DNA from: Planococcus lenghuensis
GTDB taxonomy: Bacteria > Bacillota > Bacilli > Bacillales_A > Planococcaceae
Length of the DNA stretch: 64,000 bases
Assembly: GCF_001999905.1 (NCBI RefSeq)
Contig: NZ_CP019640.1
Span: 3,638,001 to 3,702,000, forward strand
Reading direction: 5' to 3'
Position numbers and translations under genes: made by a program. Within the stretch, counting starts at the first letter, position 1, and each line of letters begins with the position of its first letter. Below, in pieces: positions 2,529-19,933 of the stretch. The notes under the pieces are model-generated. The model was not told where the DNA came from, searched no databases, and saw only the letters and a program-made list of their open reading frames with translations.

Positions 2529-3304
2529 TCAACAGCCCCCTTTTCTAAGTGCTCTGTGCCTGCTAAAGGTGTCACAGTCAAAAATCGGATGCCTTTTTCC
2601 TTCCTGTCCAAGATAAAAGGCTCCAGGGCGCGCAGCATGACAGCCGGTGCTTCCCGGTCCGCCCCGAATGTTTCCCCGCAATCATGCAGGAGGATAAAAT
2701 CACCGTCCCCTCCCGCCTCGTCCAGCCGGCTATACAATTCCGCTTCTGTTATCCCTTTTTTCCAGTCCCTCGGGATATGTGACCACATGATCACTTGCAA
2801 CTGTTCCCGAAAAAACAGGGAGCAGAGATTGAAATGACCCCAGGGCGGCCGGTAATAGCTTGGCCGTTCACCTGTGATTCCGCTGATCACTTGAATGCTT
2901 TTTGTCAACTGGCGTCTGTAGGCACTCGGCGACAAAAGCCAATTGCTGATATGCCGGAAATGATGGACGCCGATTTCATGGCCTTCTTCATGCATTCGTC
3001 GGATAAGGTCAGGATAGGCTGCCGCTTTTTCGCCTACAACAAAAAACGTGGCGCTGATGTCATGCATTTTCAGCAGATCCAGCAATTGCGGGGTATAGAG
3101 GGGATTGGGCCCATCGTCGAACGTGAGGGCGAGTGTGTTCGGAAGATTACCTTTTTGGCGAATGCCGATAGAAGCGGTTTTGCCGATCATGGTCGGAATA
3201 ACCGTATAGAGTGCAATGGCGGCCAATCCGCCAATGAACAGTTTTTTCACATTTCCCGGTCCCTTCTGTTTTCTGTTTCTGTACGTGCTGCCGTCTTTGT
3301 CCAT
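2510..3304 (-). CDS. Polysaccharide deacetylase (NodB domain)
   Basis: A membrane-anchored carbohydrate esterase family 4 protein. An N-terminal hydrophobic stretch (KKLFIGGLAAIALYTVIP) acts as signal anchor. The NodB domain follows, with LTFDDGPNP (metal/base Asp), HEIGVHHFRH (metal His), YRPPWGH and LLHDCGE. It probably removes acetyl groups from an envelope glycan. The ATG at 3304 has no clear ribosome site. A GTG about 18 codons in, at the start of VKKLFIGG, follows a GAAGGGACCGGG stretch and is a reasonable alternative. It is the first gene of a two-gene unit with the glycosyltransferase. Confidence 0.85.
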   Translation of the reverse strand: MDKDGSTYRNRKQKGPGNVKKLFIGGLAAIALYTVIPTMIGKTASIGIRQKGNLPNTLALTFDDGPNPLYTPQLLDLLKMHDISATFFVVGEKAAAYPDLIRRMHEEGHEIGVHHFRHISNWLLSPSAYRRQLTKSIQVISGITGERPSYYRPPWGHFNLCSLFFREQLQVIMWSHIPRDWKKGITEAELYSRLDEAGGDGDFILLHDCGETFGADREAPAVMLRALEPFILDRKEKGIRFLTVTPLAGTEHLEKGAVEWYSEF

Positions 3305-3749
3305 CGTGATAAGGTTCTGTTGTATTTATACCATTTTTTCGTATTTTTATAAAACAAGTTGAATGGCTGATATGGACCTTGGGCAAAAGACCATACAAGC
3401 CGCTGTTCTTCAAACAGCGGCCATGTTTCTGTATGAAACCTCTTTGCCGGTCACAGCCGACCCCGCAACAGTTTCGCTTCTGCTGCAATTCAGTCTGATT
3501 CCTTTAAATATACCCTAAAAAACAGCGATCATTCCTTGAAACTGTCAGGAAATCCTTTCTTTTCTTCCGGCTTCATTTGTTTCCGCGCTGTACGGCATGT
3601 TTTTGCTGCTCTTTTTTTCATTGATTACTCGGCTCTCCGGCAGCAGGTCAGCCGGATACGCCACCTTTCCGCTTTTCCTGCGTCGAATCCGCATTTCCTC
3701 TCTCTGTACAATGGTCTTTCATTGTTCTATATTGAAACGGGGTGATGGT
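3305..3749. other. Intergenic region with a palindrome
   Basis: About 445 bp without a convincing gene between divergent units. It holds a perfect 9-bp inverted repeat (gccgctgtt at 3399-3407, aacagcggc at 3413-3421) without a T run on either side. Promoters for both flanking genes must lie here, but I cannot place them confidently. Confidence 0.5.
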
Positions 3750-4514
3750 ATGAAAACAATTCTTTACTTAAACACTGAAAACCTCATTGCCGGAATGACA
3801 ATGAAGGATGAGGCCGCTCCGGAAGCCAATAACATGGCACTTCATGCATGCACGGCGCCAGAACGGGTAACGGAAAATCGTCGGAAACTGGCAACTTCAC
3901 TCGGCAGTGAACTGAATGATTTTGTTCTTGCCAATCAAACACACAGCGCTAATTTTCATCGGGTCACTTCACAGGATAAAGGAAAGGGTGCTATTGACAC
4001 AGAGCAGGCACTTGCGGATACGGATGCGCTTTATACTTATGAGCCGGATCTGCTGCTGGGCAGTTTTACGGCTGATTGTGTACCGGTCATGTTCTACAGC
4101 AAAACGAGCAGCCTCACTGGCGTCATTCATTCCGGCTGGCAAGGCACCGTGAAAGAAATCACCTTGAAGCTCTTTGATCATTTACGGATAAATGAACAGA
4201 TCGACCCTGCAGATATTCACATACAGATCGGTGCCGCGTTGAGTCAGGAGAAATTCGAAGTGGATGAAGATGTATATGTAAAATACAAAAATCTCGGCTA
4301 TGCGGATGACTTCATGTACTACAACGACCAGACCGGAAAGTACCATATCGATAACCAATTGACCGTAAAGAAACAGTGTGAGCTGGCAGGAATTCCGGCC
4401 GGCCAGATTGCAGTGGACCGGACTTGCACATTCACCGACCCATCCGGCTTCTCTTACCGTCAGGATAAACAGAGCGGCAGGCATCTCTGCTTCATCAAGA
4501 GAAAAAGCACTTAA
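3750..4514 (+). CDS. Laccase-domain (YfiH/PgeF-type) protein
   Basis: A 254-residue protein of the multicopper-polyphenol-oxidoreductase/YfiH family, whose characterised members act as purine nucleoside phosphorylase/adenosine deaminase or as peptidoglycan-editing factor PgeF. The metal-site triad is visible: QTHSA (His), TADCVPV (Cys) and IHSGWQGT (His). The ATG at 3750 follows a GGGGTGAT ribosome site; upstream in-frame codons have none and would add a non-family extension. In Bacillales a second copy usually sits in the division cluster, and this one is a lone gene elsewhere. The usual GPxIxxCCYEV is replaced by IGAALSQEKFEV, so it may be a divergent paralogue. Confidence 0.8.
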   Translation: MKTILYLNTENLIAGMTMKDEAAPEANNMALHACTAPERVTENRRKLATSLGSELNDFVLANQTHSANFHRVTSQDKGKGAIDTEQALADTDALYTYEPDLLLGSFTADCVPVMFYSKTSSLTGVIHSGWQGTVKEITLKLFDHLRINEQIDPADIHIQIGAALSQEKFEVDEDVYVKYKNLGYADDFMYYNDQTGKYHIDNQLTVKKQCELAGIPAGQIAVDRTCTFTDPSGFSYRQDKQSGRHLCFIKRKST

Positions 4515-4658
4515 TTCTTTCAGCGCACCGGTTTCTTCTTCGGCGCGTTTTTTGTTTCCGGTTTTTCATTTGCTGTCATTCGATTATTCAGCTTGCCCGT
4601 GATACGATAAATTCAACCCTTATTCAATTTGATCCGTATGTCCGGAAGAGGTGAAAAG

Positions 4659-5168
4659 ATGGGCTTTTTCAAACGATTGTTCAATGGAGAAGATCAGGAA
4701 CCGGCGAAAGTGGAAAAGCGGACCCTGCTTAACCTGCGCATCGGCGATTTTGTAACGTATGATCTGACCGATTACGAAGTGACCGGTAAAATCGAGTATG
4801 ATGACGGCGGGTACCGATGGACCGCTTACCAGCTGAACGCCACCGGCCGCATCCTGTGGTTGAGCACAGAGCTGGATGATGAACTTGACGTTGGCATGTA
4901 TGAACCGGTACGGATACCCGGATTCGAGGCAGGTGCCGCTGAAGTTGCTTACGATGGCCGTACCTATTACTTGGAGGAACAGGGACGCGCGCACGTTGAA
5001 GCAGCAGGCACAAGCCGCAATGTCCACGGAAAACATGTGGATTACTACGATTATGCGGATGAAACCGGCGAATCCTTTTTGTCTGTTGAAGTATGGGGCG
5101 GCGATGTGGAAGTAAGCCATGGCCATGAAATTGAAGAGTTCGAAGTCACGATCTTGGCAGGAAGTTAA
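4659..5168 (+). CDS. DUF4178 domain protein
   Basis: A 169-residue acidic soluble protein beginning MGFFKRLFNGEDQE. A DUF4178-type beta-rich domain (about residues 30-160) carries LRIGDFVTYDLTDYEV, a GYRWTAYQL motif and WLSTELDDEL. An AGAGGTG ribosome site supports the ATG at 4659 over in-frame codons upstream. It precedes pspA by 18 bp. DUF4178 proteins often sit beside PspA/YdjG-I-type membrane-stress genes in Bacilli, which suggests a membrane-stress accessory role. No biochemical function is known to me. Confidence 0.75.
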   Translation: MGFFKRLFNGEDQEPAKVEKRTLLNLRIGDFVTYDLTDYEVTGKIEYDDGGYRWTAYQLNATGRILWLSTELDDELDVGMYEPVRIPGFEAGAAEVAYDGRTYYLEEQGRAHVEAAGTSRNVHGKHVDYYDYADETGESFLSVEVWGGDVEVSHGHEIEEFEVTILAGS

Positions 5169-8189: not shown

Positions 8190-8582
8190 TTACGCTTTCT
8201 TCTGATGGCCCCTCGCCCGCTCAGCGGCAGCCAGCACTTCATATACATCCTTGCCGGTCCCGGCTTCCAGACAGGCAACATAGGCACCTTCCACGAATGG
8301 CGCATCTGCGATTTTCACCCGGTCTTCCGAGCCGGATAACTCGATTGCAAGTTCCGCATTCATCATGGCGCTCCCGATATCGAAAAAGACGACAACACCA
8401 TCTCCCTGATCCGCTTCGTCGATCGCCTGCTGGATTTTTTCCAGGCTTGTGCCGATTTCATTATCATCAGTTCCGCCAGCTGCCACGACTGCTGTTTCTT
8501 TGAATACCTGCGTCACCAGATCCTTTACGCCTTCTGCTATTTTATGGCTATGGGAAACGAGCACGATACCGACTTGGCTCAC
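8190..8582 (-). CDS. dhaM: Dihydroxyacetone kinase phosphotransfer subunit DhaM
   Basis: A 130-residue EIIA-mannose-type phosphocarrier. The N-terminal strand GIVLVSHSHKIAEGV carries the phospho-histidine (His11), followed by AAGGTDDNEIGTS and VVVFFDIGSAMMNAE. It passes phosphate from PTS HPr to DhaL-bound ADP, making dihydroxyacetone phosphorylation PEP-dependent. It is the single-domain Gram-positive form rather than the multidomain E. coli form. Its start overlaps the dhaL stop by 4 bp (ATGA), the last gene of dhaK-dhaL-dhaM. Confidence 0.93.
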   Translation of the reverse strand: MSQVGIVLVSHSHKIAEGVKDLVTQVFKETAVVAAGGTDDNEIGTSLEKIQQAIDEADQGDGVVVFFDIGSAMMNAELAIELSGSEDRVKIADAPFVEGAYVACLEAGTGKDVYEVLAAAERARGHQKKA

Positions 8583-9208
8583 AGCTGAACACCTTCTTCT
8601 TTAATGACTTGCGCTAATGATGAAAACAGGTAGTAAGACGAAACCGAACCCGGATCGAGATGACCGATGGAGCGGTCACCTAAATAGGAAGCTCTGCCTT
8701 TTTTAGCTTTCAAGTTTTTCGTATTTTCCATTGCAGCCTTTGCCGCTTCCTCAAAATCGTCTGCATCCAGCGCTTCCCGTCCCTTCAAGTACGTCAGCAG
8801 TGGTGACCAGACATCGACCATCGTCTTATCGCCTTCCTCGGCCTTCCCTCTTAATATAAGTCCGTTCAGGCCGGCTTCTACACCTTCTACAAATGAACCA
8901 TAATCGATTTCCTCTTTCCCTTGCACAGCGCCGGAAAACTTGAGCAATGCCGTTCCAAATAGCGGACCGGCTGCACCGCCCACTTTCGATAACAGCGTCA
9001 TTGACCAGTCTTTAATCAGATCGGCAACCGCTGTGTATTCCGTTGACGAGATTTTATTGACCGTTTCCTGGAATCCCCGGGAAATGTTCGTTCCGTGATC
9101 CCCGTCGCCGATTGCCTGGTCCAGTTCCGATAGATACTCCTTATTTTGCTGGATCTGCTCGTTCGTTTTCATGATCCAAGCCTTTACGTCCTCAACTTTC
9201 AATCCCAT
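8579..9208 (-). CDS. dhaL: Dihydroxyacetone kinase ADP-binding subunit DhaL
   Basis: A 209-residue all-helical DhaL domain. The nucleotide/Mg site is in ELDQAIGDGDHGTNISRG (Asp30, Asp35, Asp37), and GGAAGPLFGTALL and KGRASYLGDRSIGHLDPGS follow. It holds ADP/ATP as a tightly bound cofactor that relays phosphate from DhaM to dihydroxyacetone on DhaK. It lies between dhaK (64-bp gap) and dhaM (4-bp overlap). Confidence 0.94.
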   Translation of the reverse strand: MGLKVEDVKAWIMKTNEQIQQNKEYLSELDQAIGDGDHGTNISRGFQETVNKISSTEYTAVADLIKDWSMTLLSKVGGAAGPLFGTALLKFSGAVQGKEEIDYGSFVEGVEAGLNGLILRGKAEEGDKTMVDVWSPLLTYLKGREALDADDFEEAAKAAMENTKNLKAKKGRASYLGDRSIGHLDPGSVSSYYLFSSLAQVIKEEGVQL

Positions 9209-9272
9209 TCCGCCTCTTCCTTTCGTGATGAAATGAGGAGAAACCTGAATCGGATCCTCCCCTGCTGTTCAC

Positions 9273-10262
9273 TTAAAATCCGAGCGTATTCGTTGGTGCA
9301 GCCAGCAGCTCTTTCAGTTCATCATCCAATTTGAGCAATGTGACCGACAAGCCGGCCATATCGATCGCCGTCATGTATTCGCCGACAAACGTTTTATGGA
9401 CAGTGAATCCTTTTTCTTTCAGGAGATCATTCACTTTGCCGTTCAGGACATACAGCTCCATCAATGGCGTGCCGCCCAATCCGTTGATCATCACGGCTAC
9501 TTCATCACCGCTTTGGTGTACACCATCATCCAATATTTTCTGCACGAGCGTTTCCGCGATTTCATCGGCTGATTTTATTTTATCGCGCGAAATTCCTGGT
9601 TCCCCATGAATGCCCATCCCGATTTCCATTTCATCTTCAGCAATCTGGAAACCGGCTTTCCCGGTCGAAGGGATCGTGGCAGCTGTCAATGCCATCCCCA
9701 TGGATCGCACGTTAGCGACTGTTTTTTCTGCCGTCGCTTTCACTTCGGCCAAACTCGCTCCGCTTTCCGCTTTGGCACCCGCCAGTTTATGAACGAATAA
9801 TGTTCCGGCAATTCCTCTTCTGCCTGTTGTGTATGTACTGTCTTCCACTGCCACATCGTCATTCACGATCACCTTATCGACCCGGATTTCTTCCATTTCC
9901 GCCAGTTCCGCTGCCATTTCGAAATTCATGACATCACCGGTATAGTTCTTGATGATCAGCAAGACGCCTTCTCCGCCATCCACAGCTTTAATCGCTTCCA
10001 ACACCTGATCCGGCGTCGGGGATGTGAAGACTTCACCTGATACCGCAGCATCCAACACGCCTTTTCCGACGAATCCGGCATGTGCCGGTTCATGCCCGCT
10101 TCCGCCTCCACTTACGAGCGCCACTTTCCCTTGAACTGGTGCGTCTGCCCGTGCAATGACCGTTGTTCCTTCCACTCGCTTCAGTAAATCGCCATGTGCA
10201 GCCACCATGCCCTTCAGCATTTCCTCTACAATTTGGTTCGGGTCGTTAATCACTTTTTTCAT
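9273..10262 (-). CDS. dhaK: Dihydroxyacetone kinase substrate-binding subunit DhaK
   Basis: A 329-residue DhaK. The phosphate loop is SGGGSGHEPAHAGF with His57, and GMGIHGEPG holds His219, the residue that forms a hemiaminal bond to dihydroxyacetone in this family. It phosphorylates dihydroxyacetone to DHAP, feeding glycolysis. It is the first gene of dhaKLM; no DhaR/DhaS regulator and no glycerol dehydrogenase lie beside it. A CGGGAGGG ribosome site precedes the ATG. The HpcH/HpaI aldolase gene upstream is separated by a terminator, so the kinase is probably a separate unit. Confidence 0.94.
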   Translation of the reverse strand: MKKVINDPNQIVEEMLKGMVAAHGDLLKRVEGTTVIARADAPVQGKVALVSGGGSGHEPAHAGFVGKGVLDAAVSGEVFTSPTPDQVLEAIKAVDGGEGVLLIIKNYTGDVMNFEMAAELAEMEEIRVDKVIVNDDVAVEDSTYTTGRRGIAGTLFVHKLAGAKAESGASLAEVKATAEKTVANVRSMGMALTAATIPSTGKAGFQIAEDEMEIGMGIHGEPGISRDKIKSADEIAETLVQKILDDGVHQSGDEVAVMINGLGGTPLMELYVLNGKVNDLLKEKGFTVHKTFVGEYMTAIDMAGLSVTLLKLDDELKELLAAPTNTLGF

Positions 10263-10470: not shown

Positions 10471-10524
10471 CAAAAAACAAAAGCTGCCTTATCAGCCAAT
10501 CCTCGCGACTTAAGACAACTTTTT
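10471..10524 (-). terminator. Terminator of the aldolase/lactonase operon
   Basis: On the minus strand a 13-bp stem with G-U pairs (arms at 10511-10523 and 10479-10491) is followed by TTGTTTTTTG. It lies 18 bp after the aldolase stop. Confidence 0.75.
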
Positions 10525-10541
10525 GTGCATTCTTATTAACT

Positions 10542-11330
10542 TCATTTTTCCCTGCCTTCTTCTCTGAATGCCGCTGCAATTCCTTTCCAGGACACCATCA
10601 GTAATGGCCAGTCAAATCCGACTGCCAGGAAGGACATCCCCTGCTCTGCCCATCGGCGCGCCGCCTCAATATCCCGGCTGAAGATACCGGCAGCCCGGCC
10701 ATTTTGCGTAACCGTCTGAACAGCACCAGCAATCAATTCCGTAACGGCAGGGTTATTGACTTCGCCGGTCACGCCAAGATCCGCTGACAGATCGTAGGGA
10801 CCGAAAAACACACCATCGAGTCCATCGAGCTGTGAAATTCGGTCGATTCGCTTAACAAGATTCACTTTCTCTGCCATGATCCATACGCTCGTCCGGGTAT
10901 TTTCCTCTTTCATAAACGTTGCTGCATCAAGAGTGCCATAACCTGTTCCGGGTACGAACGGATTCAGGCCTCTCGTCCCGAGCGGCGCAAATTTCAGAGT
11001 CCGGATTACATTGCGCACATCTTCCGGCGTCTCAGCGCCGGCAACAATCGCCCCATCCAGCCCCCGGTCAAACAGGCTTCCCAGAAACGGAAGATCTTCC
11101 ATTGAACAGCGAACAAACACACGGAGCGCCAGATTCTGGGCGGTATCCACGAACCTGCCCACAAGTTCCTGTGTCGGCGTGCCATGCTCAATATCAATGA
11201 TAAGAAAATCCAGCCCTGCCGCCGCTGCCACCCGTACCACTTCCGGATCGTGGCCTAATATAAAAGAGCCGACTGCTATACTTCCTTGTTTAGCTTCATG
11301 TTGCCTGTCTTTGTCTGAAGAATTTGCCAC
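10542..11330 (-). CDS. HpcH/HpaI family aldolase
   Basis: A 262-residue class II pyruvate-type aldolase. FIIDIEHG-like LDFLIIDIEHGTPT supplies the catalytic His, MAEKVNLVKRI the metal Glu, and FFGPYDLSADLG the metal Asp and phosphate-loop region. Family members split 2-keto-4-hydroxy acids into pyruvate plus an aldehyde, or condense them. It starts at GTG 11330, seven to ten bases after AAGGAG. It is the last gene of the ten-gene enzyme array, 30 bp after the lactonase and followed by a terminator. A retro-aldol step after a lactone-opening step would make chemical sense. Confidence 0.88.
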   Translation of the reverse strand: MANSSDKDRQHEAKQGSIAVGSFILGHDPEVVRVAAAAGLDFLIIDIEHGTPTQELVGRFVDTAQNLALRVFVRCSMEDLPFLGSLFDRGLDGAIVAGAETPEDVRNVIRTLKFAPLGTRGLNPFVPGTGYGTLDAATFMKEENTRTSVWIMAEKVNLVKRIDRISQLDGLDGVFFGPYDLSADLGVTGEVNNPAVTELIAGAVQTVTQNGRAAGIFSRDIEAARRWAEQGMSFLAVGFDWPLLMVSWKGIAAAFREEGREK

Positions 11331-11360
11331 GATGTCCGACTCCTTCTTTTCAGCATTGGG

Positions 11361-12119
11361 TTATGAATAAAATTGCGGGTATTTCTTCCATTCCTTCCCC
11401 TGTTCCTGATCATGTCCGAAGAAAACCGCAGCCCGCTCTGCTTCCGCGATCTTTTGAAGGCGGGCAATGGACCGGGCTGCTTCCTTCTCGTCTTTCACGG
11501 CAAAAGGAATGCCTTCCTCATAATTTGCCCGGACATACACCGCATCAATCGTCAGGAGGATAGCCCCCGAGTTTCTTGTGCGGACCAGCACCGACTGATG
11601 CCCCGGTGTATGGCCCGGTGTGTGAATCAGTGAGACACCGGGCACCAGTTCCGTGTCTCCTTCAATGATCCGGTAATTCAAATGCGGCGAACGGCAGACA
11701 GCCGGATAAGCGCCCTGCTCCATGGCTACATCATATTCAGCCCGCTGCACAATGATTTCCGTGTCAGGAAACAGCGTATTGCCGCCCGCATGATCAAAAT
11801 GCCAGTGCGTGCTGATGATGCCGGCGAGGTCATCCGGTTCATACCCAGCCAGTGCCAGAACTTGATCGGCCCGGTCGGCTTTACTCATTTCGGGTATGAT
11901 GAGCCCTTCATCTTCCGTTCCCGCAAACATGCCATTCGGATCCGTAATGCAGGAATCCGGCATACCGGTATCCACCAGAAAAAGACCGTCTGTCGTTTCG
12001 ATTAAGTACATCCAGATCGGAAACAGCACCTTCTCGCCCGGCGACAGCCGCGTGTTAAAGACCGACCGATCCACATGGCAAAAACCGGCCGGAAGCAATG
12101 TCAGCTTCTCAACGCTCAT
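11361..12119 (-). CDS. AiiA-type N-acyl-homoserine-lactonase family metallo-hydrolase
   Basis: A 252-residue metallo-beta-lactamase-fold protein that aligns by eye with Bacillus AiiA over its full length. The di-zinc motif HWHFDH gives His105, His107, Asp109 and His110. His170 (TPGHTPGH), Asp192 (LLTIDAVY) and His236 (FFGHD) complete the site, and Tyr195 matches the catalytic AiiA Tyr194. Family members open homoserine or other lactone rings. It could quench acyl-homoserine-lactone signals. However, it sits inside a catabolic-looking operon between an SDR and an aldolase, so a pathway lactone is an equally good substrate. Activity is inferred, not shown. Confidence 0.87.
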   Translation of the reverse strand: MSVEKLTLLPAGFCHVDRSVFNTRLSPGEKVLFPIWMYLIETTDGLFLVDTGMPDSCITDPNGMFAGTEDEGLIIPEMSKADRADQVLALAGYEPDDLAGIISTHWHFDHAGGNTLFPDTEIIVQRAEYDVAMEQGAYPAVCRSPHLNYRIIEGDTELVPGVSLIHTPGHTPGHQSVLVRTRNSGAILLTIDAVYVRANYEEGIPFAVKDEKEAARSIARLQKIAEAERAAVFFGHDQEQGKEWKKYPQFYS

Positions 12120-12155
12120 TTTATCGTTCCCCTTCCGCCACCTATTCTTGCCGGC

Positions 12156-12953
12156 TCACATCGACTGCACAACTCCGCCATCAGCCAGAACCGTCTGGCC
12201 CGTCATATATGAATTTGCCGGTGACAGCAGAAACGCGGCCAGCCTGCCGAACTCTTCCGGGGTTCCGTACCGACCCATCGGCACTTTTTCCTGTTCCGCC
12301 GCCTGGACTTCTTCAAGCGGCCGTCCTTCCCGTTCCGCCCGGGCGCCGTCCAGTGAATCCAAACGGGCAGTCTTGATACGGCCGGGTGCAAGATTCACCA
12401 CTTGGATATTGTCTTTCGCCACTTCCGCCGCCAATGTCTTCAACATCGCTGCTGTGCCGGTGCGGATGGTATTCGACAGAATCAGATTCGGGATCGGCTG
12501 CTTCACGGACATCGATGATACATTCAGAATCTTACCCCCTCCGCTCCGCTTCATGATCGGCAGTGTTTCCCGGACCAGCCGGACGACGCTCATAAGATTG
12601 AGATTAACCGCTGCCAGCCAGTCCTCATCTGAGAATTGTTCAAATTGACCGGCCGGCGGACCGCCCGCATTTGTGACGAGCAGATCGAGGCCGCCGAGCT
12701 GCTGTTCCGCTTTCTTTATCAGTTGCTGGATGTCTCCATTCTTTGTGACATCCGCCGCAATAGGGATGACTGTCCCTTTCTGCACGTTGCAGGTCCGGGA
12801 AATTTCATCTGCAACTTCTTCTAAGCGTTCCTGCCGGCGGCTCGAGATGACCACTTGGCACCCTTCGCTGACGAGCGCTTCTGCAATGGCTCTGCCGAGA
12901 CCTTGCGAGGCAGCTGTAACCAATGCACGCTTTCCTTTTAAACCAATGTCCAC
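12156..12953 (-). CDS. SDR-fold protein lacking catalytic Tyr and Lys (second copy)
   Basis: A 265-residue SDR-fold protein with LVTAASQGLGRA as nucleotide motif (the usual first Gly is Ala), NAGGPPAG, and NVSSMS with the catalytic-type Ser. Thirteen residues after that Ser, where the Tyr should be, there is Ser, and four further on, where the Lys should be, there is Arg (LSNTIR). GTG at 12953 is chosen because GGAGGGAATGAA precedes it; a longer frame to 13025 exists. It lies between YciI and the lactonase. It resembles the FabG-like subgroup with an imperfect catalytic tetrad. Ordinary oxidoreductase chemistry is doubtful. Confidence 0.83.
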   Translation of the reverse strand: MDIGLKGKRALVTAASQGLGRAIAEALVSEGCQVVISSRRQERLEEVADEISRTCNVQKGTVIPIAADVTKNGDIQQLIKKAEQQLGGLDLLVTNAGGPPAGQFEQFSDEDWLAAVNLNLMSVVRLVRETLPIMKRSGGGKILNVSSMSVKQPIPNLILSNTIRTGTAAMLKTLAAEVAKDNIQVVNLAPGRIKTARLDSLDGARAEREGRPLEEVQAAEQEKVPMGRYGTPEEFGRLAAFLLSPANSYMTGQTVLADGGVVQSM

Positions 12954-12978
12954 TTCATTCCCTCCTTCAAAGATCGTT

Positions 12979-13254
12979 CTATTGGCCGCTGATCGGAAAC
13001 GCCAGCGGCTGCCAGGCCCGCACATTTACTGTACGGGCACCTGATGTGACGGCCGGATCCTCATTCGCCAGGTGAAGCGCTTCTTCTTCTGAATCACAAT
13101 TATATATGACGAGACCGCCTGTCTTATCCAAAAACGGTCCCGCTTCAAAAACGCTGCCAGCTTCGTACAGATCGCTGATGTACTGCAGATGCGCCGGCCG
13201 GGATGCCGTGTTTTTCTCCTGATCGACTATGATAAGTTCGGCAAGGTACATCAT
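12979..13254 (-). CDS. YciI family protein
   Basis: A 91-residue ferredoxin-like-fold protein of the YciI family. Visible are ASRPAHLQYISDLYEAG (the conserved RxxHLxyl), FEAGPFLDKTGGLVIY and the C-terminal beta strand VNVRAWQPL. YciI proteins resemble muconolactone isomerase in fold and have a His-Asp pair thought to act in acid-base chemistry, but most have no known substrate. The start overlaps the upstream cupin stop by 4 bp, so the two are translationally coupled. The SDR gene starts 25 bp downstream. Confidence 0.82.
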   Translation of the reverse strand: MMYLAELIIVDQEKNTASRPAHLQYISDLYEAGSVFEAGPFLDKTGGLVIYNCDSEEEALHLANEDPAVTSGARTVNVRAWQPLAFPISGQ

Positions 13255-13670
13255 TGCCCTTTCTCCTTGTTCATAAGTTCCTTGAACGCTTCTCTTGGCG
13301 GTGCGAAGGTGTCGATGCAGACCGCCCCTTCTTCAAGCGCCACAGCACCATGAGGCACATTGCGCGGGATGGTGACGGCATCGCCTTCACCGATCACTTG
13401 TTTTTTATCTCCCACTTCAAATTCGAGCCGGCCTTTGATGACATAGGTAATCTGCTCCTGCGGGTGCTGATGCAGCGGCGCCACTGCGTTCGGCGCAAAT
13501 GTGACATAACTGATCATCACCTGCTGTCCAAAAAACGGATGGAGTGTAACGCCATCCGCCGCTTCAAGCGACTGCATATCCGGCATGTGTTCGAATGTCG
13601 GTTCATAGTCGGCTACATAATCATGTGATACTCCTTCTCGGAAATAATCCCGGTTAACGCCCATGGTCAT
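13251..13670 (-). CDS. Cupin-domain protein (paralogue of the 15.9-kb cupin)
   Basis: A 139-residue single-domain cupin. Motif 1 is PLHQHPQEQITYVIKG (two His, Gln/Glu) and motif 2 is PRNVPHGAV (third His), so a metal site is present. The C-terminus DTFAPPREAFKELM mirrors that of the other cupin in this array, indicating gene duplication. The family covers isomerases, dioxygenases and decarboxylases, so the reaction is open. It overlaps the upstream AhpD/CMD gene by 17 bp and the downstream YciI gene by 4 bp. Confidence 0.86.
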   Translation of the reverse strand: MTMGVNRDYFREGVSHDYVADYEPTFEHMPDMQSLEAADGVTLHPFFGQQVMISYVTFAPNAVAPLHQHPQEQITYVIKGRLEFEVGDKKQVIGEGDAVTIPRNVPHGAVALEEGAVCIDTFAPPREAFKELMNKEKGQ

Positions 13671-14082
13671 CTTCCCCTTTCGGTGTTTCCGGCTGTTCGA
13701 ATTCCAGCTTCAATCCGCTGGAAAAAGCGTTCGTGCCGGAGAAAAAATCAATAATTGAGATCATTTCCATCAGCTGGTCCTCTGTCATGCCAAGTTTTCT
13801 GGCGGCAAAAGAATGGCTGTCGATGCAATAGCTGCAGCCATTGACCATCGAAGTCGTCAGCGCAATGATCTCTTTTGTAAGCGGATCGAGCGTGCCATCA
13901 AGCATGATGGTCTTATACCGTTCCCAGTTCACCCGGAGATAATCCGGCCGAAGCGCCATCGTGCGCCAGATGAGCGGGACTTGTTGCCACCCCCTGATCC
14001 ACTTCATTTCTTCATAAATTTCTTTCACCAGTCCCGTGGCTTCGCTTTCAGGCACTTCATTCACTAAGGCCATTTCATCCAC
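13654..14082 (-). CDS. Carboxymuconolactone decarboxylase/AhpD family protein
   Basis: A 142-residue helical protein. The AhpD core motif CSYCIDSH provides a CxxC pair and His, preceded by LTKEIIALTTSMVNG. The CxxC makes peroxidase/disulfide chemistry (AhpD-like) at least as likely as decarboxylation. The N-terminal VPESEATGLVKEIYEEM is typical of peroxidase-related members. Two ATGs four codons apart are possible; the first lies five bases after AAAGG. It lies 20 bp after the atypical SDR and overlaps the cupin, inside the array. Confidence 0.83.
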   Translation of the reverse strand: MDEMALVNEVPESEATGLVKEIYEEMKWIRGWQQVPLIWRTMALRPDYLRVNWERYKTIMLDGTLDPLTKEIIALTTSMVNGCSYCIDSHSFAARKLGMTEDQLMEMISIIDFFSGTNAFSSGLKLEFEQPETPKGEDDHGR

Positions 14083-14102
14083 GCCTTTCGGTATTTAGTC
14101 TG

Positions 14103-14849
14103 CTAGAGGTACTTGGCCATGCCGCCATCGACATCGATTGCTGTTCCTGTGATATAGGAAGAACGCGCGGAGACGAGGAATGCGACAGCCGCTGCAACTT
14201 CAGCTCCATCTCCGAACCGGCCGAGCGGCACATCAAACGTGCCGATGAGTTCATCAAAAAAGCTTTGCGGCTTCCCTTCCCATTGACCGGAATTAACAAA
14301 TCCGATATTTACAGCATTGACCAGGATGCCGTCCGCTGCGAGTTCCTTCGCCAGCGTTTTCGTTAATGAAATACAGGCCGCCCGGTTTACGCTTGAAGCG
14401 AAAAACCGCTTCTCCGGCTGTTTGCCGAATACCGCTGCCATATTGACAATCCGGCCGCCTGCCGGCATAAACGGCAGAACAGCTCGGGAGAAACGGATAT
14501 AAGACAATTGCTTCACCTGGAAATCCGCTTCCCAGTCTTCATCTGTCAGTGTTTTAAATGTTCCCGGATACGCCTTTCCTGCGTTGTTGACGAGCACGTC
14601 AATACTGCCGAACCGTTCACCGACCGCTTCCACAAAAGCGGTGACTGCCTCAGGATCCGTTACATCGACTGACTCCGCATAAAACCGATCCGGCCCCGCC
14701 TGCTCCTGCAGGCCGGTAAAGTCTTCGACGTGACGGCTGCAGCTTGCCACGATGCAGCCTTCGGCAAGTAATTCCTCGCAGACCGCCCGGCCGATCCCCC
14801 GGGAACCGCCGGTTACAAGCGCCACTTTCCCTTTCAAACCCAATTCCAT
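14103..14849 (-). CDS. SDR-fold protein lacking catalytic Ser, Tyr and Lys (first copy)
   Basis: A 248-residue SDR-fold protein with a full cofactor motif (TGGSRGIGRAV) and NNAG. The catalytic positions are altered: NMAAVFG has Ala for the catalytic Ser, and thirteen and seventeen residues later Ser and Arg stand where Tyr and Lys belong (ASSVNR). The paralogue at 12.2-13.0 kb has the same Ser/Arg substitution. This suggests a shared, non-standard role (isomerase, lyase, binding) rather than random decay. It opens the second block of the array, 121 bp after the aminotransferase and past a hairpin. Confidence 0.83.
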   Translation of the reverse strand: MELGLKGKVALVTGGSRGIGRAVCEELLAEGCIVASCSRHVEDFTGLQEQAGPDRFYAESVDVTDPEAVTAFVEAVGERFGSIDVLVNNAGKAYPGTFKTLTDEDWEADFQVKQLSYIRFSRAVLPFMPAGGRIVNMAAVFGKQPEKRFFASSVNRAACISLTKTLAKELAADGILVNAVNIGFVNSGQWEGKPQSFFDELIGTFDVPLGRFGDGAEVAAAVAFLVSARSSYITGTAIDVDGGMAKYL

Positions 14850-14904
14850 TGTTCTGCTCCTCTCATTCCGCCCGGTCTGTTCCTGCGGATGTCCGTAGAT
14901 TCAT

Positions 14905-14963
14905 TGAAAACAAAGAGACCTCATCAGGGACCGGCTGACCGCCAGTCCCTTCCCGAGGCTCTT
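14905..14963 (-). terminator. Internal hairpin/terminator within the enzyme array
   Basis: After the aminotransferase stop the minus strand forms a long imperfect stem between 14957-14963 and 14913-14919, with inner arms pairing gggac-ggc with gcc-gtccc, followed by TTTGTTTTC. It would end or attenuate the ligase-cupin-aminotransferase transcript before the seven downstream genes. Confidence 0.65.
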
Positions 14964-14970
14964 CGTGGAA

Positions 14971-15933
14971 TTATTTATAGACAGGTGTCAGCCAGTCTGC
15001 ATACCGTTCATCCAGTCCGCGTACCGCTTTATAATATACAGTCTGCAGTTGCGCTGTAATCGATCCGAGTTCACCGCTGCCGACTTTCCGTCGGTCGACG
15101 GATGATACCGACGCAATCTGAACACCCGTCCCAGCTAGGAAAATCTCATCTGCAACGTACAGTTCGGTCCGGTCAACGGCGCGCACTTCGTAAGCGATAC
15201 CAAGATCTTCCGCCACCTGCAGCACGGCCCGGCGCGTGATGCCTTCCAGAATATCTGCGGTGACGGGTGTTGTAATAATCGTATTGTCCCGTACGATGAA
15301 CAGGTTGGAAGAACTGGCTTCTGACAGCTGACCATCGGCTGACAGCATGATCGCTTCGTCATAGCCGTCGGCCGATGCCGCATCATTCGCCAGCGCGGCA
15401 TTAATATAGGCACCGGTCACTTTGGCCCGTGATGGAATCGTATTATCAGAAATGCGCTGCCAGCTTGAGACGACGAGCGCCAAGTCTTCCGTTTTCACAT
15501 AATCCCCCATGGGCACCGTGAAAATCGCCAGTTCATCCCGCAGTCCGCCGAGTGTGACTTTAATGACCCGGGAGGCTTTAAAAGCCATCGGCCGGATATA
15601 GACATTCCCTTGGTACTCGTTTTTCTCGAGCACTTTCACCGTCCACTCCACCAGTTCTTCCGCTGTATAAGGACACTCGATTTTCAGGATGCGGCATGAT
15701 TTGATCAGCCGCTGGAAATGCTCCAGCGCTTTCAGCATATACAGCTGCCCCTGCTCGGCATTCCAGTAGGCCCGGATTCCTTCAAAGCAGCCGGTCCCGT
15801 AGTTTAGTGCATGTGTCGATATGTTGATATTCGCGTTATCCAGCGGCATGATTTCCCCTTTGAAGAAACAGTACCCGCCGGTGATTTCTGCTGTTGGTGA
15901 TGGTCCTTGCGCTGCTGTCTCCCGTGCTGTCAT
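14971..15933 (-). CDS. Class IV PLP aminotransferase, branched-chain type
   Basis: A 320-residue fold-type IV PLP enzyme of the IlvE group. It shows THALNYGTGCFEGIRAYW, YIRPMAFKASRVI, the PLP lysine in SRAKVTGAYINAAL, EASSSNLFIV and LEGITRRAVL. IlvE-type enzymes move amino groups between branched-chain amino acids and 2-oxoglutarate; related members act on other substrates. The start overlaps the upstream cupin stop by 4 bp. Its place between a glutamine-synthetase-like ligase and atypical SDRs suggests a dedicated pathway role rather than general isoleucine/valine synthesis. Confidence 0.88.
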   Translation of the reverse strand: MTARETAAQGPSPTAEITGGYCFFKGEIMPLDNANINISTHALNYGTGCFEGIRAYWNAEQGQLYMLKALEHFQRLIKSCRILKIECPYTAEELVEWTVKVLEKNEYQGNVYIRPMAFKASRVIKVTLGGLRDELAIFTVPMGDYVKTEDLALVVSSWQRISDNTIPSRAKVTGAYINAALANDAASADGYDEAIMLSADGQLSEASSSNLFIVRDNTIITTPVTADILEGITRRAVLQVAEDLGIAYEVRAVDRTELYVADEIFLAGTGVQIASVSSVDRRKVGSGELGSITAQLQTVYYKAVRGLDERYADWLTPVYK

Positions 15934-16394
15934 TTCTCTCCCTCTTCCTCCTCCATTTTACGGAGGGCTTCATCCATCATCTTTTTATAGCCCGTCCGCG
16001 GCGGGGAAAAGATATCAAGCGCTACGCATCCTTTTTCGTATGTAACTGCACCGTGCGGAACGTTCGGCGGCACCACATAGACGTCGCCTTTACGGATCAT
16101 TTTCTTCACGCCATTGAGTTCAAACTCATACTCGCCTTCAATCATCGTCCCGATCTGCTCTTCCGGATGTGAATGGACAGGGGCTACACTGTTCGGCTCC
16201 ATATAAACAAAACTGAGCTGAACATTTTCCCCGAATACCGGTTTCAGTCCGAGCCCTTCCACCACTTTCAGCAGCGGGATATCGTCCGTGTTCAAATGCC
16301 GGGGCTGAAAATCACCGGCCACTTCAACAACATTTTCTTCAGGCGGCGCAAAATAACCGCCTGTCCCGATACCTTCTTTCTTTTCCTTGCTCAT
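15930..16394 (-). CDS. Cupin-domain protein
   Basis: A 154-residue single-domain cupin starting MSKEKKEGIGTG after an AAAGGAGTGG ribosome site. Metal ligands are in PVHSHPEEQIGTMIEG and PPNVPHGAV. The tail DIFSPPRTGYKKMM parallels the cupin at 13.3-13.7 kb. The N-terminal 40 residues (PEENVVEVAGDFQPRHLN) are not found in the paralogue. The catalytic reaction is unknown. It lies 38 bp after the glutamine-synthetase-like gene and overlaps the aminotransferase by 4 bp. Confidence 0.85.
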   Translation of the reverse strand: MSKEKKEGIGTGGYFAPPEENVVEVAGDFQPRHLNTDDIPLLKVVEGLGLKPVFGENVQLSFVYMEPNSVAPVHSHPEEQIGTMIEGEYEFELNGVKKMIRKGDVYVVPPNVPHGAVTYEKGCVALDIFSPPRTGYKKMMDEALRKMEEEEGEK

Positions 16395-16432
16395 CCCATC
16401 CACTCCTTTTGATTTCTCGGCTGTGCATGGCC

Positions 16433-17779
16433 CTAAAACAGGTCTGCATATTCCTCGATTTCCCAATCTGTCACATGATCATTAAAACGGCTGATTTCAT
16501 TTTCCTTCAGCGCGATATAAGCATTCACCGCATCCGCCCCTAAATACTTCGTCAGCGCTTCATCGGCTTTTAACGCCGCTAGAGCTTCCGGCAGGCTGCC
16601 GGGAAGACTCCCCGACCCTTCCACACTGTATGCATCTTCATTATGCACAGGATCCGTGAGCGGCAGTTTCCGTCTGATGCCGTCAAGCCCGGCTGCGTAC
16701 ATGGCCGCCATCATCAAATACGGATTGCAGTCGGCGCCCGGCATCCGGTTTTCAAGACGCGTCCCCTGCCCGCGGGCTTCCGGCACCCGGATCAGGCACA
16801 TGCGGTTCTCGAACCCCCATGTGATGTTCGATGGTGCAAATGTATACGGCCGCAGCCGCCGGTAGCTGTTGATCGACGGGTTGGCAAATGCACAGATGGC
16901 GGCACTGTGTTCAAGCTGGCCGGCGATGAAATGCTTGAATAATTCACTCATTCCATTTTCATCTGCCGCGTCATAAAAAGCATTATCCCCCGACGCCAAT
17001 TCATATAGCGAATGATGGAAATGCGCCCCGCTTCCGCTCAAGCCGGTCAGCGGCTTGGTCATGAACGTTGCAAGCAGGCCGCGTCTGTGCATCAATTCCT
17101 TCGCCGAGGTTTTGTAATAGAAAGCGGCATCCGCCTGGCCGAGTCCCTTATGCGGCTTCATCGAAATCTCATACTGGCCCGGCCCGTACTCCGTGTTGAT
17201 GGCTTCCACTTCAATTCCTACGGATTCCATCGGCACTGATAAATCATAAAGGATTTCATCGACCTGGGACTGCTTCACTTCGGAATAGCATTGCAGGCCT
17301 GTCCATGTCGGTTCATATCCGTCCTTGGCATACTTCTCAAAGACATAGAACTCAAGTTCCGCTGCGCCGAAAGTGGAATATCCTTCCGCTTCGAACTCTT
17401 TCAGCACGTTATGGAGAATACCGCGCGGGTATACGCTGACCGGTTCTCCTTCCAGAGTGAACACATCGGCGATCACACGGGCCGTCTGTTTCGCCCACGG
17501 CACGACCGTAAAAGTCGCGGGATCCACTTTCAGCATCCAGCTGCCGTATCCGCCGGCAAATCCGGCACCCGCCGGCAATACGAAATTAGCTGCCGTATCG
17601 ACCGAGAACATGGCTGATGGATACTGCATTCCCTGCTCAAGTACTTCATCCGTGAATTTCTTCACCGGGATATTCCGGGCTCTTGCCACATTCACCAAAT
17701 CATTAAAAACGACACGGACTATTTTGATGTCTTCATCCCTGATGATTTTTCTGATGTCATCATTGTTCAAGTTTTTCAT
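16433..17779 (-). CDS. Glutamine-synthetase-family ligase (GlnA-like/gamma-glutamyl-amide ligase)
   Basis: A 448-residue protein of the glutamine synthetase superfamily. It carries FGAAELEFYVF (metal Glu), EYGPGQYEISM, GSGAHFHHSLYE, NSYRRLRPYTFAPSNITWG and an R-P motif before NPYLMMAAMYA. It lacks close likeness to the housekeeping enzyme at several positions; for example Tyr and Phe flank the active site in the NSYRRLRPYTF region. Members of this outer group join glutamate to amines such as putrescine, ethanolamine or aniline with ATP. AAAGGAGGG precedes the ATG at 17779. It is the first gene of the array, directly behind the promoter with the inverted repeat. Confidence 0.87.
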   Translation of the reverse strand: MKNLNNDDIRKIIRDEDIKIVRVVFNDLVNVARARNIPVKKFTDEVLEQGMQYPSAMFSVDTAANFVLPAGAGFAGGYGSWMLKVDPATFTVVPWAKQTARVIADVFTLEGEPVSVYPRGILHNVLKEFEAEGYSTFGAAELEFYVFEKYAKDGYEPTWTGLQCYSEVKQSQVDEILYDLSVPMESVGIEVEAINTEYGPGQYEISMKPHKGLGQADAAFYYKTSAKELMHRRGLLATFMTKPLTGLSGSGAHFHHSLYELASGDNAFYDAADENGMSELFKHFIAGQLEHSAAICAFANPSINSYRRLRPYTFAPSNITWGFENRMCLIRVPEARGQGTRLENRMPGADCNPYLMMAAMYAAGLDGIRRKLPLTDPVHNEDAYSVEGSGSLPGSLPEALAALKADEALTKYLGADAVNAYIALKENEISRFNDHVTDWEIEEYADLF

Positions 17780-17853: not shown

Positions 17854-17898
17854 AGTTAAAATTATATGGACAGACGCCTCCGTAAGTCAATTTTAACT
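17854..17898 (-). promoter_or_regulatory. Sigma-A-type promoter flanked by a perfect inverted repeat
   Basis: The minus strand reads TTGACT (17890-17885), 18 bases, then TATAAT (17866-17861), about 80 bp before the ligase start. Perfect 10-bp inverted arms agttaaaatt (17854-17863) and aattttaact (17889-17898) overlap the -10 and the -35 element. A dimeric repressor bound there would block RNA polymerase. No regulator gene is adjacent. Confidence 0.65.
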
Positions 17899-18007
17899 TT
17901 TTAAAAGATTCTTTCTAATTGAACAATCCGCTTACAGCCAATGATAGAATAAAGGCAGCAGGACTTGATAACTGAAAACTATGATCGACACAGGAGGAAT
18001 TGCTACT

Positions 18008-19933
18008 ATGACTGAAAAAGCGACAGGACCTTATGGCAGCTGGAAGTCGCCTGTCACAACCGATCTGATCGTCCAGGGAACCACACCGCTTGTCAGCACA
18101 GGCCTTCTTGGCCAGGATCTGTATTGGGTGGAAGCCCGCCCGAAAGAAGCCGGACGGAACACCGTCATGCGGCAGGCACAGGACGGCACCGTAACAGAAT
18201 TGACTCCGGCTCCCTATAATGTGCGGACGCGTGTGCATGAATATGGAGGGATCTCTTACTGCTTTCTCGGCGGCGCACTGTATTTCTCGAATTTCGATGA
18301 TAACTTCCTGTATGTCCGCAGTGAAGATGGTGACATTGAACGCATAACGACCGATTCGAATCTTCGCTATGCGGACCCGGCAGTGGATGTCCGGAAGCAG
18401 CGGACGTACTGGGTGCGTGAAGATCATACAGAATCGGCGATTGCTGCTGAAACAACGATCGTCGTCATGGACACGGACGGGGGTAATGAACGCATCGTCG
18501 TCTCGGGCAGCGACTTCTATTCAAGCCCGCGTCTCAGTCCTGATGGCAGTCAGCTCGCCTATCTTACGTGGCAGCATCCTAATATGCCATGGGATGAGTC
18601 CGAGCTGTGGGTAGCCGATCTGGCTGAAGATGGAACGCTGCTGAACGCCAAGCGGGTTGCAGGCGGTTCCGGTGAATCCGTCACACAGCCTGTCTGGTCG
18701 CCGGACGGAATGCTCTACTTTGCATCGGACCGCTCGAATTGGTGGAATATCATGCGGATCAATGGCGGCAATGCAGAAACGGTCTATGCAAAAGATGCGG
18801 AGTTTGCATCGCCCGGCTGGATGTTCGGTATTTCGGATTACGCCTTCATTGATGACACGGTCATCATATGCACATACACCGATAAAGGAGTCAAACATTT
18901 GGCGAAAATCGATGTCGTAACCGGGGCATTGATCCCAATGGAAACAGCGTACACATTTTTCTCTTCCATTCATTCGAATGGCAGTGATGCTGTATTCATC
19001 GCGGCTTCACCGACAGAGTTTCCGCGCATCGTCCGGATGAACACCAAAGACCAGCTTGCTGTAATTAAGGCTTCAGCGGAATTGTCAGTGGATAAATCCT
19101 ACATTTCACAGCCTGAAACCATCGAGTACCCGACAGCAGACGGCAAGACGGCATATGCTTTCTACTATCGCCCGCACAATCCGGAATATGCAGCCCCGGC
19201 GGACGAGAAACCGCCCCTCCTTGTGCATGTGCATGGCGGGCCAACCGGCATGACGACTGCCATTTTGAACTTAGTGAAGCAGTACTGGACGAGTCGCGGC
19301 TTTGCACTTGTTGATGTGAACTACGGCGGCTCTGCCGGCTTCGGCCGGGAATACCGTGAGCGGCTGAAAGGCAATTGGGGAATCACTGATGTCGAGGACA
19401 GCGCGAACGCTGTACGTTATTTGATCGAAAAAGGGGAAGTTGACGGCAGCCGGGTCGCCATTTCAGGCGGCAGTGCCGGCGGCTATACGACGCTCGCGTC
19501 ACTTGTGTTTACGGACGTGTACAGCGCGGGTGCCAGTCATTTCGGACTGAGTGAACTTGAAGTATTCGTAAAAGAAACCCATAAGTTTGAGTCCCGGTAC
19601 TTGCACGGGCTGATTGGCCCCTACCCGGAAGCCAAGGATGTATATGCTGAGCGTTCACCGATCAATTTCACAGACCGGCTGTCGTGCCCGGTCATCTTCT
19701 TTCAGGGCCTTGAAGACAAAATTGTCCTGCCGAATCAGGCGGAAGGGATGGTTGAGGCGTTAAAGGAAAAAGGGCTGCCGGTTGCTTATTTGGCATTTGA
19801 AGGCGAAGGACACGGGTTCAGGAAATCCACGAACATTAAACGCGCCATTGAAGGGGAATTTTATTTCTACAGCCGGATCTTCGGTTTTGAACCGGCTCAA
19901 GCAATTGAACCGGTGGAAATTCTGAATGCCTGA
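18008..19933 (+). CDS. S9 family (prolyl-oligopeptidase-type) serine peptidase
   Basis: A 641-residue cytosolic peptidase. Its N-terminal beta-propeller has WD-like repeats such as SSPRLSPDGSQLAYLTW and VTQPVWSPDGMLYF. A C-terminal alpha/beta-hydrolase domain follows, with LVHVHGGPTG (oxyanion region), ISGGSAGGY (Ser489), GLEDKIV (Asp570) and GEGHGF (His602). This is the S9C acylaminoacyl-peptidase-like group, which releases N-terminal residues from short peptides. AGGAGG at 17992-17997 supports the ATG at 18008, not the ATG at 17981. It diverges from the enzyme array. Confidence 0.9.
   Translation: MTEKATGPYGSWKSPVTTDLIVQGTTPLVSTGLLGQDLYWVEARPKEAGRNTVMRQAQDGTVTELTPAPYNVRTRVHEYGGISYCFLGGALYFSNFDDNFLYVRSEDGDIERITTDSNLRYADPAVDVRKQRTYWVREDHTESAIAAETTIVVMDTDGGNERIVVSGSDFYSSPRLSPDGSQLAYLTWQHPNMPWDESELWVADLAEDGTLLNAKRVAGGSGESVTQPVWSPDGMLYFASDRSNWWNIMRINGGNAETVYAKDAEFASPGWMFGISDYAFIDDTVIICTYTDKGVKHLAKIDVVTGALIPMETAYTFFSSIHSNGSDAVFIAASPTEFPRIVRMNTKDQLAVIKASAELSVDKSYISQPETIEYPTADGKTAYAFYYRPHNPEYAAPADEKPPLLVHVHGGPTGMTTAILNLVKQYWTSRGFALVDVNYGGSAGFGREYRERLKGNWGITDVEDSANAVRYLIEKGEVDGSRVAISGGSAGGYTTLASLVFTDVYSAGASHFGLSELEVFVKETHKFESRYLHGLIGPYPEAKDVYAERSPINFTDRLSCPVIFFQGLEDKIVLPNQAEGMVEALKEKGLPVAYLAFEGEGHGFRKSTNIKRAIEGEFYFYSRIFGFEPAQAIEPVEILNA

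Follow-up and report, generated by a model that had tools for sequence, protein, structure and literature searches.

A conserved ten-gene array built around a glutamine synthetase-like ligase in Planococcus lenghuensis, a candidate pathway for amine catabolism

Within a window of 64,000 nucleotides of Planococcus lenghuensis (assembly GCF_001999905.1, contig NZ_CP019640.1, positions 3,638,001 to 3,702,000), ten adjacent genes encode an unusual combination of enzymes headed by a glutamine synthetase-like (GS-like) ligase. All ten open reading frames (ORFs) lie on the minus strand, running from 17782 to 10542 in the ORF list of the window, and Pfam and NCBIfam scans bear out the ten families that a preliminary description had named on this single strand. 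The array begins with the GS-like gamma-glutamyl ligase (16433..17779), which by alignment and tree forms a subfamily of its own with changed ammonium-site residues, and continues with a first cupin (cup1, 15930..16394), a class IV aminotransferase (AT, 14971..15933) resembling IlvE and branched-chain aminotransferases (BCAT), a short-chain dehydrogenase/reductase (SDR1, 14103..14849) and an AhpD-like protein of the carboxymuconolactone decarboxylase (CMD) type (13654..14082). These are followed by a second cupin that is a paralog of the first (cup2, 13251..13670; both were identified by Cupin_2 matches and ortholog comparison), a YciI-family protein (12979..13254), a second SDR (SDR2, 12156..12953), an AiiA-type metallo-lactonase (11361..12119) and an HpcH/HpaI aldolase (10542..11330), with the CMD, YciI and HpcH assignments also agreeing with the orthologs.

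The GS-like gene starts at the ATG at 17779, which is preceded by AAAGGAGG. For cup1 and SDR2, the longest ORF extends too far at its 5' end; the two starts were placed at the ATG at 16394, after AAAGGAG, and at the GTG at 12953, after the ribosome-binding-site-like AGGAGG, and the orthologs agree with both. From the GS-like gene to HpcH, the spacing is a 38-bp gap, a 4-bp overlap, gaps of 121 and 20 bp, overlaps of 17 and 4 bp, and gaps of 25, 36 and 30 bp. The overlaps of 4-17 bp and gaps of 20-38 bp reported earlier therefore describe every interval but one, the exception being the 121-bp gap between AT and SDR1. This lone gap folds into a strong hairpin on the minus strand (14910..14966, followed by TTTC; − 51.4 kcal/mol, z − 4.1, with 0 of 200 shuffles equally stable), therefore the earlier view that the genes form one or two operons is right. 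Because the gap folds far better than its shuffles, read-through from AT to SDR1 may be partial, with the hairpin acting as a possible attenuator or partial terminator.

A promoter-like site on the minus strand, TTGACT-18-TATAAT (17861..17890), lies some 80 bp ahead of the start codon of the GS gene, matches at 11 of 12 positions and is the top of 20 such sites in the scanned region. Both its − 35 and − 10 boxes are overlapped by a perfect 10-bp inverted repeat, AGTTAAAATT/AATTTTAACT with 25 bp between the arms (17854..17898), which is the longest among 9 pairs counted without a shuffle control and is a candidate operator for this site; no regulator gene adjoins it. At the other end, a terminator-like hairpin follows HpcH on the same strand (10482..10497). 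Taken alone, such sites are weak evidence, because shuffles yield them too: 13.0 (standard deviation 3.9) promoter-like sites against the 20 found, and 15.2 terminator-like sites against 8. Immediately downstream of the array, on the same strand, are Dak1, Dak2 and EIIA-man genes (8190-10262) for a dihydroxyacetone kinase of the phosphotransferase system type.

Most of the array recurs, in the same order, in a few acidophilic bacteria that are distant from the host. A scan with the GS-like ligase, taking one genome per species, returned three close relatives (73-78%) and three distant ones, and the loci compared came from Alicyclobacillus mengziensis (L031), a related genome (L052, genome G171), the Bacillota metagenome-assembled genome (MAG) DX2.bin20 (L032) and two contigs (L103 and L033) of the Alicyclobacillus MAG HOT.MB2.91. 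In L031 and L052, nine of the ten window genes are kept in order at 57-77% identity, with an IclR regulator gene inserted (GS, IclR, cup1, AT, SDR1, CMD, cup2, YciI, SDR2, AiiA), while HpcH and a small amidotransferase-like gene are divergent and in front, with a permease of the amino acid-polyamine-organocation (APC) superfamily beyond them. The DX2.bin20 contig carries a permease, an amidohydrolase, a second GS-like gene, an amidotransferase-like gene, GS, IclR, cup1, AT, SDR1, CMD, cup2 and AiiA; L103 keeps cup1-AT-SDR1-cup2-YciI-SDR2 with a divergent HpcH, and the GS and permease of the same MAG lie on the separate contig L033. Counted over these loci with the window included, GS, cup1, AT, SDR1 and cup2 are present in five of the five genomes, CMD, YciI, SDR2, AiiA, HpcH and the permease each in four, and IclR and the amidotransferase-like gene each in three. 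Protein identities between the relatives and the window are 57-81% overall, HpcH excepted, and HpcH belongs to the conserved set although it is divergent in L031 and L052. The idea that the ten genes are an accidental run of unrelated neighbours does not survive the recurrence of the same set and order in L031 and L052; judged by gene order and identity, the array is a real conserved multigene unit, more than a product of chance.

Other genes near these loci were considered. In L032, an Amidohydrolase_2 gene and the second GS-like gene (2217-5053) adjoin the cluster, a pair that we take to resemble a split FluG. A ring-cleaving dioxygenase of the LigB family lies near the L103 cassette (4160-4990); it was not counted as a pathway part, being found beside L103 only, with an aldo/keto reductase gene on the other strand between. 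An S9 peptidase was also dropped as a shared part: it is downstream of AiiA in L031 and L052 and divergent in the window (17981-19933), and the window protein matches those of L031 and L052 at 23%, over the C-terminal part alone.

The ligase provides the clearest indication of the chemistry. Aligned with GlnA-type sequences including the host's own GlnA (MAFFT), it keeps E142/E144, E198/E205, H254, R332 and E344/R346 (449-aa numbering), positions whose catalytic and metal-binding roles we take from StGS. The flap motif PGYEAP has become PYTFAP in all five GS-like orthologs, the SDM motif of GlnA (Asp64) has become SWM in both the MAFFT and the HMMER alignments, and compared with GlnA there is an additional glycine-rich loop at approximately residues 68-80. 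The DGSSI motif is gone, but the two programs differ in where they place the stretch that has Asp50' in GS, and a nearby aspartate, Asp62 in the motif FSxDT, may take its place. The flap glutamate should be residue 327, and residue 357 is presumably the glutamate of TRLENR, which the GS-like ligase keeps. The flap glutamate is printed as Glu357 in the excerpt of PMC11335346, which states that NpaA1 and other organic-amine ligases lack both Asp50' and this glutamate and carry an extra N-terminal loop (15th motif) that lines a large amine pocket. The window enzyme scores below the cutoffs of the PuuA model NF045547 (289.6 bits against 650), the type I GlnA model TIGR00653 (302.6 against 429) and the type III model TIGR03105 (284.4 against 470). 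Together these features suggest that the window enzyme resembles organic-amine gamma-glutamyl ligases of the GoaS/GmaS/NpaA1 type, and it is predicted to ligate an amine. This agrees with the earlier proposal that the ligase could glutamylate an amine: with the flap glutamate and an ammonium-site residue lost, the enzyme is unlikely to use ammonia.

The remaining enzymes are in keeping with remodelling and cleavage of a carbon skeleton. The aminotransferase scores above curated cutoffs (344.4 bits against 279 for NF005146; 295.2 against 245.6 for TIGR01122) and is BCAT-like by this measure. With 386.2 bits against a cutoff of 375 for NF045699, and an HxHxDH metal motif that is intact here and in the orthologs, the AiiA-type enzyme is a predicted member of the acyl-homoserine lactone (AHL) lactonase family, its best solved relatives being the AiiA entries 2br6 and 2a7m. 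In HpcH and its orthologs, the His, Arg, Glu and Asp residues typical of HpaI are in place, presumably with the same roles. The CMD protein is called AhpD-like because it passes the AhpD-domain cutoff and has a CxxC...H motif, present in the orthologs; both cupins carry HxHxxEQ...H, and cup2 matches BacB weakly (37 bits). The SDRs are atypical. The classical SDR tetrad is Asn-Ser-Tyr-Lys; both enzymes keep the glycine motif and have Ser and Arg where the catalytic Tyr and Lys are expected, with K-A-S-R in five of five SDR1 orthologs and N-S-S-R in four of four for SDR2. Since the same replacements recur throughout these orthologs, the loss of Tyr and Lys is, on the alignments, a conserved change and not decay. 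A profile search of the Protein Data Bank (PDB) with SDR1 returned nothing at E ≤ 1e-50.

Neighbours of other AiiA-type genes were examined as a clue to the substrate. Of 13 further loci, 11 were opened (L129-L139, mostly from the taxonomic order of A. mengziensis; G184 and G115 were left out), and none of the 11 had a match to GS, cupin, AT, CMD, YciI or HpcH. The other matches were distant SDRs (25-29%) in L137 and L139 and an S9 peptidase in L135; in L134 a sigma-54 activator gene (37% match) adjoins the AiiA-type gene.

The preliminary description also noted the lack of a transporter or regulator in the array, which is true of the window; the relatives, on the other hand, have an APC permease (AA_permease_2), an IclR regulator and a one-domain amidotransferase-like protein of the N-terminal nucleophile (Ntn) type that is possibly a gamma-glutamyl hydrolase. 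With start codons chosen by us, the Ntn protein begins with Met-Cys, and Cys2 is invariant in all three sequences. It scores 24 bits against the EgtC model TIGR03442 (cutoff 218.65), falls under Pfam cutoffs too, and has no PDB relative by sequence search at E ≤ 0.01. Its predicted structure (pLDDT 65) matches PurF (Z 18.3), EgtC (Z 18.1, root-mean-square deviation 3.0, 197 aligned) and GlmS (Z 17.5), which points with modest confidence to a class II Ntn amidotransferase fold of the PurF/EgtC/GlmS type. Because it is a lone domain of EgtC size, the protein would most simply be a gamma-glutamyl amide hydrolase.

The nearest GS relatives of the array's ligase (42-50% identity) belong to a second operon, seen in the 15 distinct loci opened (L037, L054-L061, L063, L064, L089-L091 and L151). 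All 15 have a sigma-54 activator gene and an FmdA/AmdA amidase gene next to the GS gene, and 14 of them also have an APC permease there, L054 showing a partial permease match only. The L059 operon ends with an added AiiA-like lactonase. Like the array's relatives, these operons thus mostly include a permease, but they differ in having a formamidase-family amidase and no cupins, AT, SDRs, CMD, YciI or HpcH. They occur in Bacillota, with one of the 15 on a plasmid labelled Arthrobacter citreus, and no description of this operon was found among the matches listed in literature word searches.

The array is rare in its host's lineage. In searches with a GS model at E ≤ 1e-115, an ortholog was present in one of 261 genomes of the host's taxonomic order, namely the host itself, and nine of 59 genomes in that of A. 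mengziensis matched, four with orthologs (960 bits or more) and five with the sister type only. In a class sample 12 of 398 genomes matched, two with orthologs, and in a phylum sample three of 289, two of them ortholog-like and one of these at a contig end. Genome G832 has a 65% GS that is cut by the contig end and has unrelated neighbours, and is uninformative. Genomes listed under two numbers with identical coordinates were each counted once (G153=G527, G173=G135, G174=G445, G175=G503, G188=G614, G209=G606, G157=G598 and G206=G621). A GS tree of 31 rows (the window, 29 hand-picked loci and, from L032, a second GS that is partial) groups the window with four orthologs from the order of A. mengziensis in one clade (99/99), whose sister clade has 14 members (100/99). 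Given one ortholog in 261 genomes of the host's order against four in 59 of the other, the operon was likely acquired horizontally by the host. The GC content of the operon (53.2% against 48.2% for the window) is a weak sign of transfer, because the six neighbouring genes measured span 48.6-53.1% and third-position GC overlaps. The conservation of gene order that the preliminary description proposed to look for in other Planococcaceae was found elsewhere, in distant genomes of the order of A. mengziensis and not in the host's own order.

In plasmid searches, GS matched one record (one listed), CMD 63 (25 listed), cup2 53 (25) and SDR1 44 (25), and the five plasmid neighbourhoods opened besides that of the GS hit, three of which were compared with the window proteins, held no full cassette and no substrate clue. 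On a Shinella plasmid (L066, 6096-7381) a class IV AT is directly followed by a CMD gene among sugar-transport-type genes, with 25% and 41% identity to the window proteins, respectively. A Gemmatirosa plasmid has a cupin adjoining an SDR2-like gene (33%, 43%), and a Caballeronia plasmid has cupin, IclR and SDR genes next to a Rieske oxygenase.

The gene set, its conservation and distribution, the family membership of its products and their kept or lost active-site residues are established here, and the reading of them that we favour, though tentatively and at somewhat less than even confidence, is the catabolism of an amine or amino acid that can form a lactone; it would proceed via gamma-glutamylated intermediates and finish with transamination and aldol cleavage. 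A compound bearing a primary amine or an amino-acid group would enter the cell, through the APC permease in the relatives, for which the host has no counterpart. The GS-like ligase would then use ATP to couple the amine of this compound to glutamate at the gamma-carboxyl group. The carbon skeleton would be reshaped by the metal cupins, both atypical SDRs, YciI and the AhpD-like protein, and the AiiA-type enzyme would open a lactone. Removal of the gamma-glutamyl group could fall to the Ntn protein, a suitable candidate in three of the four relatives, and would need a substitute in the host. The BCAT-like AT would pass the amino group to 2-oxoglutarate, and HpcH would cleave the hydroxy-oxo acid so formed, releasing an aldehyde together with pyruvate or a different 2-oxo acid. 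The catabolic reading of the preliminary description is thus the favoured one, for which the conserved order, the residue changes in the ligase, the permease, IclR and Ntn genes, the catalytic motifs of AiiA, HpcH and CMD, the pairing of a GS-like ligase with an amidotransferase-like partner and the amidase and permease of the sister clade all count; we infer the direction, substrate and order of steps. The statement that this set corresponds to no known pathway held, as no named pathway with this gene set was found among the matches listed in literature word searches.

Parallels to parts of this scheme exist. In the aniline system AtdA2 is a class I amidotransferase, whereas the Ntn partner in the array's relatives has a predicted class II fold; a glutaminase-type partner is nevertheless common to both. 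The aniline and 1-naphthylamine systems (AtdA1-A2, NpaA1) share with the array a GS-like ligase in which the ammonium site is changed and, apparently, a loop is added near the N terminus, but no Rieske dioxygenase is among the ten proteins, and the cupin, SDR, lactonase and aldolase genes are extra. A GS-like ligase with an enzyme resembling glutamine amidotransferases is the pattern of the aniline route (PMC11335346) and also of the ethanolamine route (PMC6529630), in the excerpts of both. Among the Streptomyces gamma-glutamylation pathways for ethanolamine (GlnA4) and polyamines (GlnA3/PuuA), the glnA4 cluster has an SDR and a glutamine amidotransferase besides its ligase, and also a putative transporter (PMC6529630). 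However, the window GS is far below the PuuA and GlnA models, and the array has no aldehyde dehydrogenase, while its AT, lactonase and aldolase are not named for glnA4 in the excerpt.

Several findings weigh against the catabolic proposal. The host has no ortholog of the permease (E ≤ 1e-30) or of the Ntn protein (E ≤ 1e-5), and because of this its version is incomplete or rewired, a core without the relatives' genes for import, regulation and likely deglutamylation. As for IclR, the host has two paralogs only (29 and 36%), the 36% one among genes unlike those of the operon. The Ntn model itself is modest (pLDDT 65), with PurF, GlmS and EgtC matches that tie, and the Asp50' stretch of the ligase is not safely alignable. 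YciI, SDR2 and HpcH have no match of their own on the 12.9-kb contig L032, where SDR2 matches SDR1 only, and CMD and AiiA have none on L103, therefore these steps would not be obligatory in those genomes. HpcH shares just 43, 44 and 50% identity with the relatives' copies.

Other explanations were weighed against this evidence. In a biosynthetic operon, which we consider unlikely, HpcH would condense pyruvate with an aldehyde to give a 4-hydroxy-2-oxo acid, which the AT would convert to a gamma-hydroxy amino acid, the cupins and SDRs would tailor this, and the GS-like ligase would cap it as a gamma-glutamyl derivative, with the lactonase serving in self-protection or processing. The bacilysin operon, bacABCDEFG, with which the preliminary description drew a comparison, also brings together cupin, SDR, aminotransferase and ligase genes, and the weak match of cup2 to BacB and the very patchy distribution fit this explanation. 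However, BacD is an ATP-grasp ligase, BacA a prephenate decarboxylase and BacF a class I aminotransferase, whereas by Pfam the ten proteins include no ATP-grasp or prephenate decarboxylase family and no part of a nonribosomal peptide or polyketide synthetase, and the array has an IlvE-type class IV AT, a lactonase and an aldolase. The conserved genes lack an efflux gene, the relatives have an IclR regulator and an amino-acid-type permease, and the sister GS clade goes with an amidase and mostly a permease, all of which count against a biosynthetic operon; the bacilysin-like reading is weakened.

Alternatively, and with distinctly low probability, the array would join two separate functions, one for amines (the ligase and aminotransferase part, GS-cup1-AT) and one for lactones or keto acids (from SDR1 through HpcH), divided at the hairpin at 14910-14966. 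The strength of this hairpin, the divergence of HpcH in L031, L052 and L103, and the location of GS and permease in the HOT.MB2.91 MAG on a contig other than that of cup1-SDR2 accord with such a division, but cup1, AT and SDR1 remain linked across the gap in each of the five genomes, and the hairpin was not seen in the corresponding gaps of L031, L052 and L103. We regard as very unlikely a cassette for quorum quenching or detoxification, in which AiiA would open AHLs or lactone toxins of another kind, and its neighbours in the array would salvage the pieces, such as homoserine by transamination and aldol cleavage. The AHL lactonase AiiA is from the Bacillus cereus group, and the array's enzyme resembles it in its score above the curated cutoff, its intact metal motif and its closest solved structures, with a further AiiA-like gene at the end of the sister operon L059. 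Set against this, the array's enzyme is embedded in a conserved metabolic gene set, no acylase family is among the ten proteins (Pfam), a route through homoserine could do without cupins, SDRs, YciI and a GS-like ligase, AiiA has no match on L103, and none of the 11 other AiiA loci has GS, cupin, AT, CMD, YciI or HpcH nearby.

Returning to the catabolic reading, the GS-like clade scores below cutoff in the matching NCBIfam models of the GS family and gives the pathway a clear entry enzyme, and the sister clade provides a second operon built around a GS-like ligase. The conserved SDRs without the usual Tyr and Lys are a chemical puzzle in their own right. More speculatively, and with a rather low probability, the array may represent a new gamma-glutamyl-shielded degradation pathway of Bacillota, in which these SDRs carry out chemistry unusual for their family on an amine that is glutamylated and can form a lactone, and AiiA is a dedicated metabolic enzyme; if true, such catabolism would be one ancestral use of AHL lactonases. 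The array itself defines a pathway, probably transferable, for which no description was found among the matches listed in literature word searches, and it places an AHL-lactonase homolog in a setting that looks metabolic rather than quorum-quenching.

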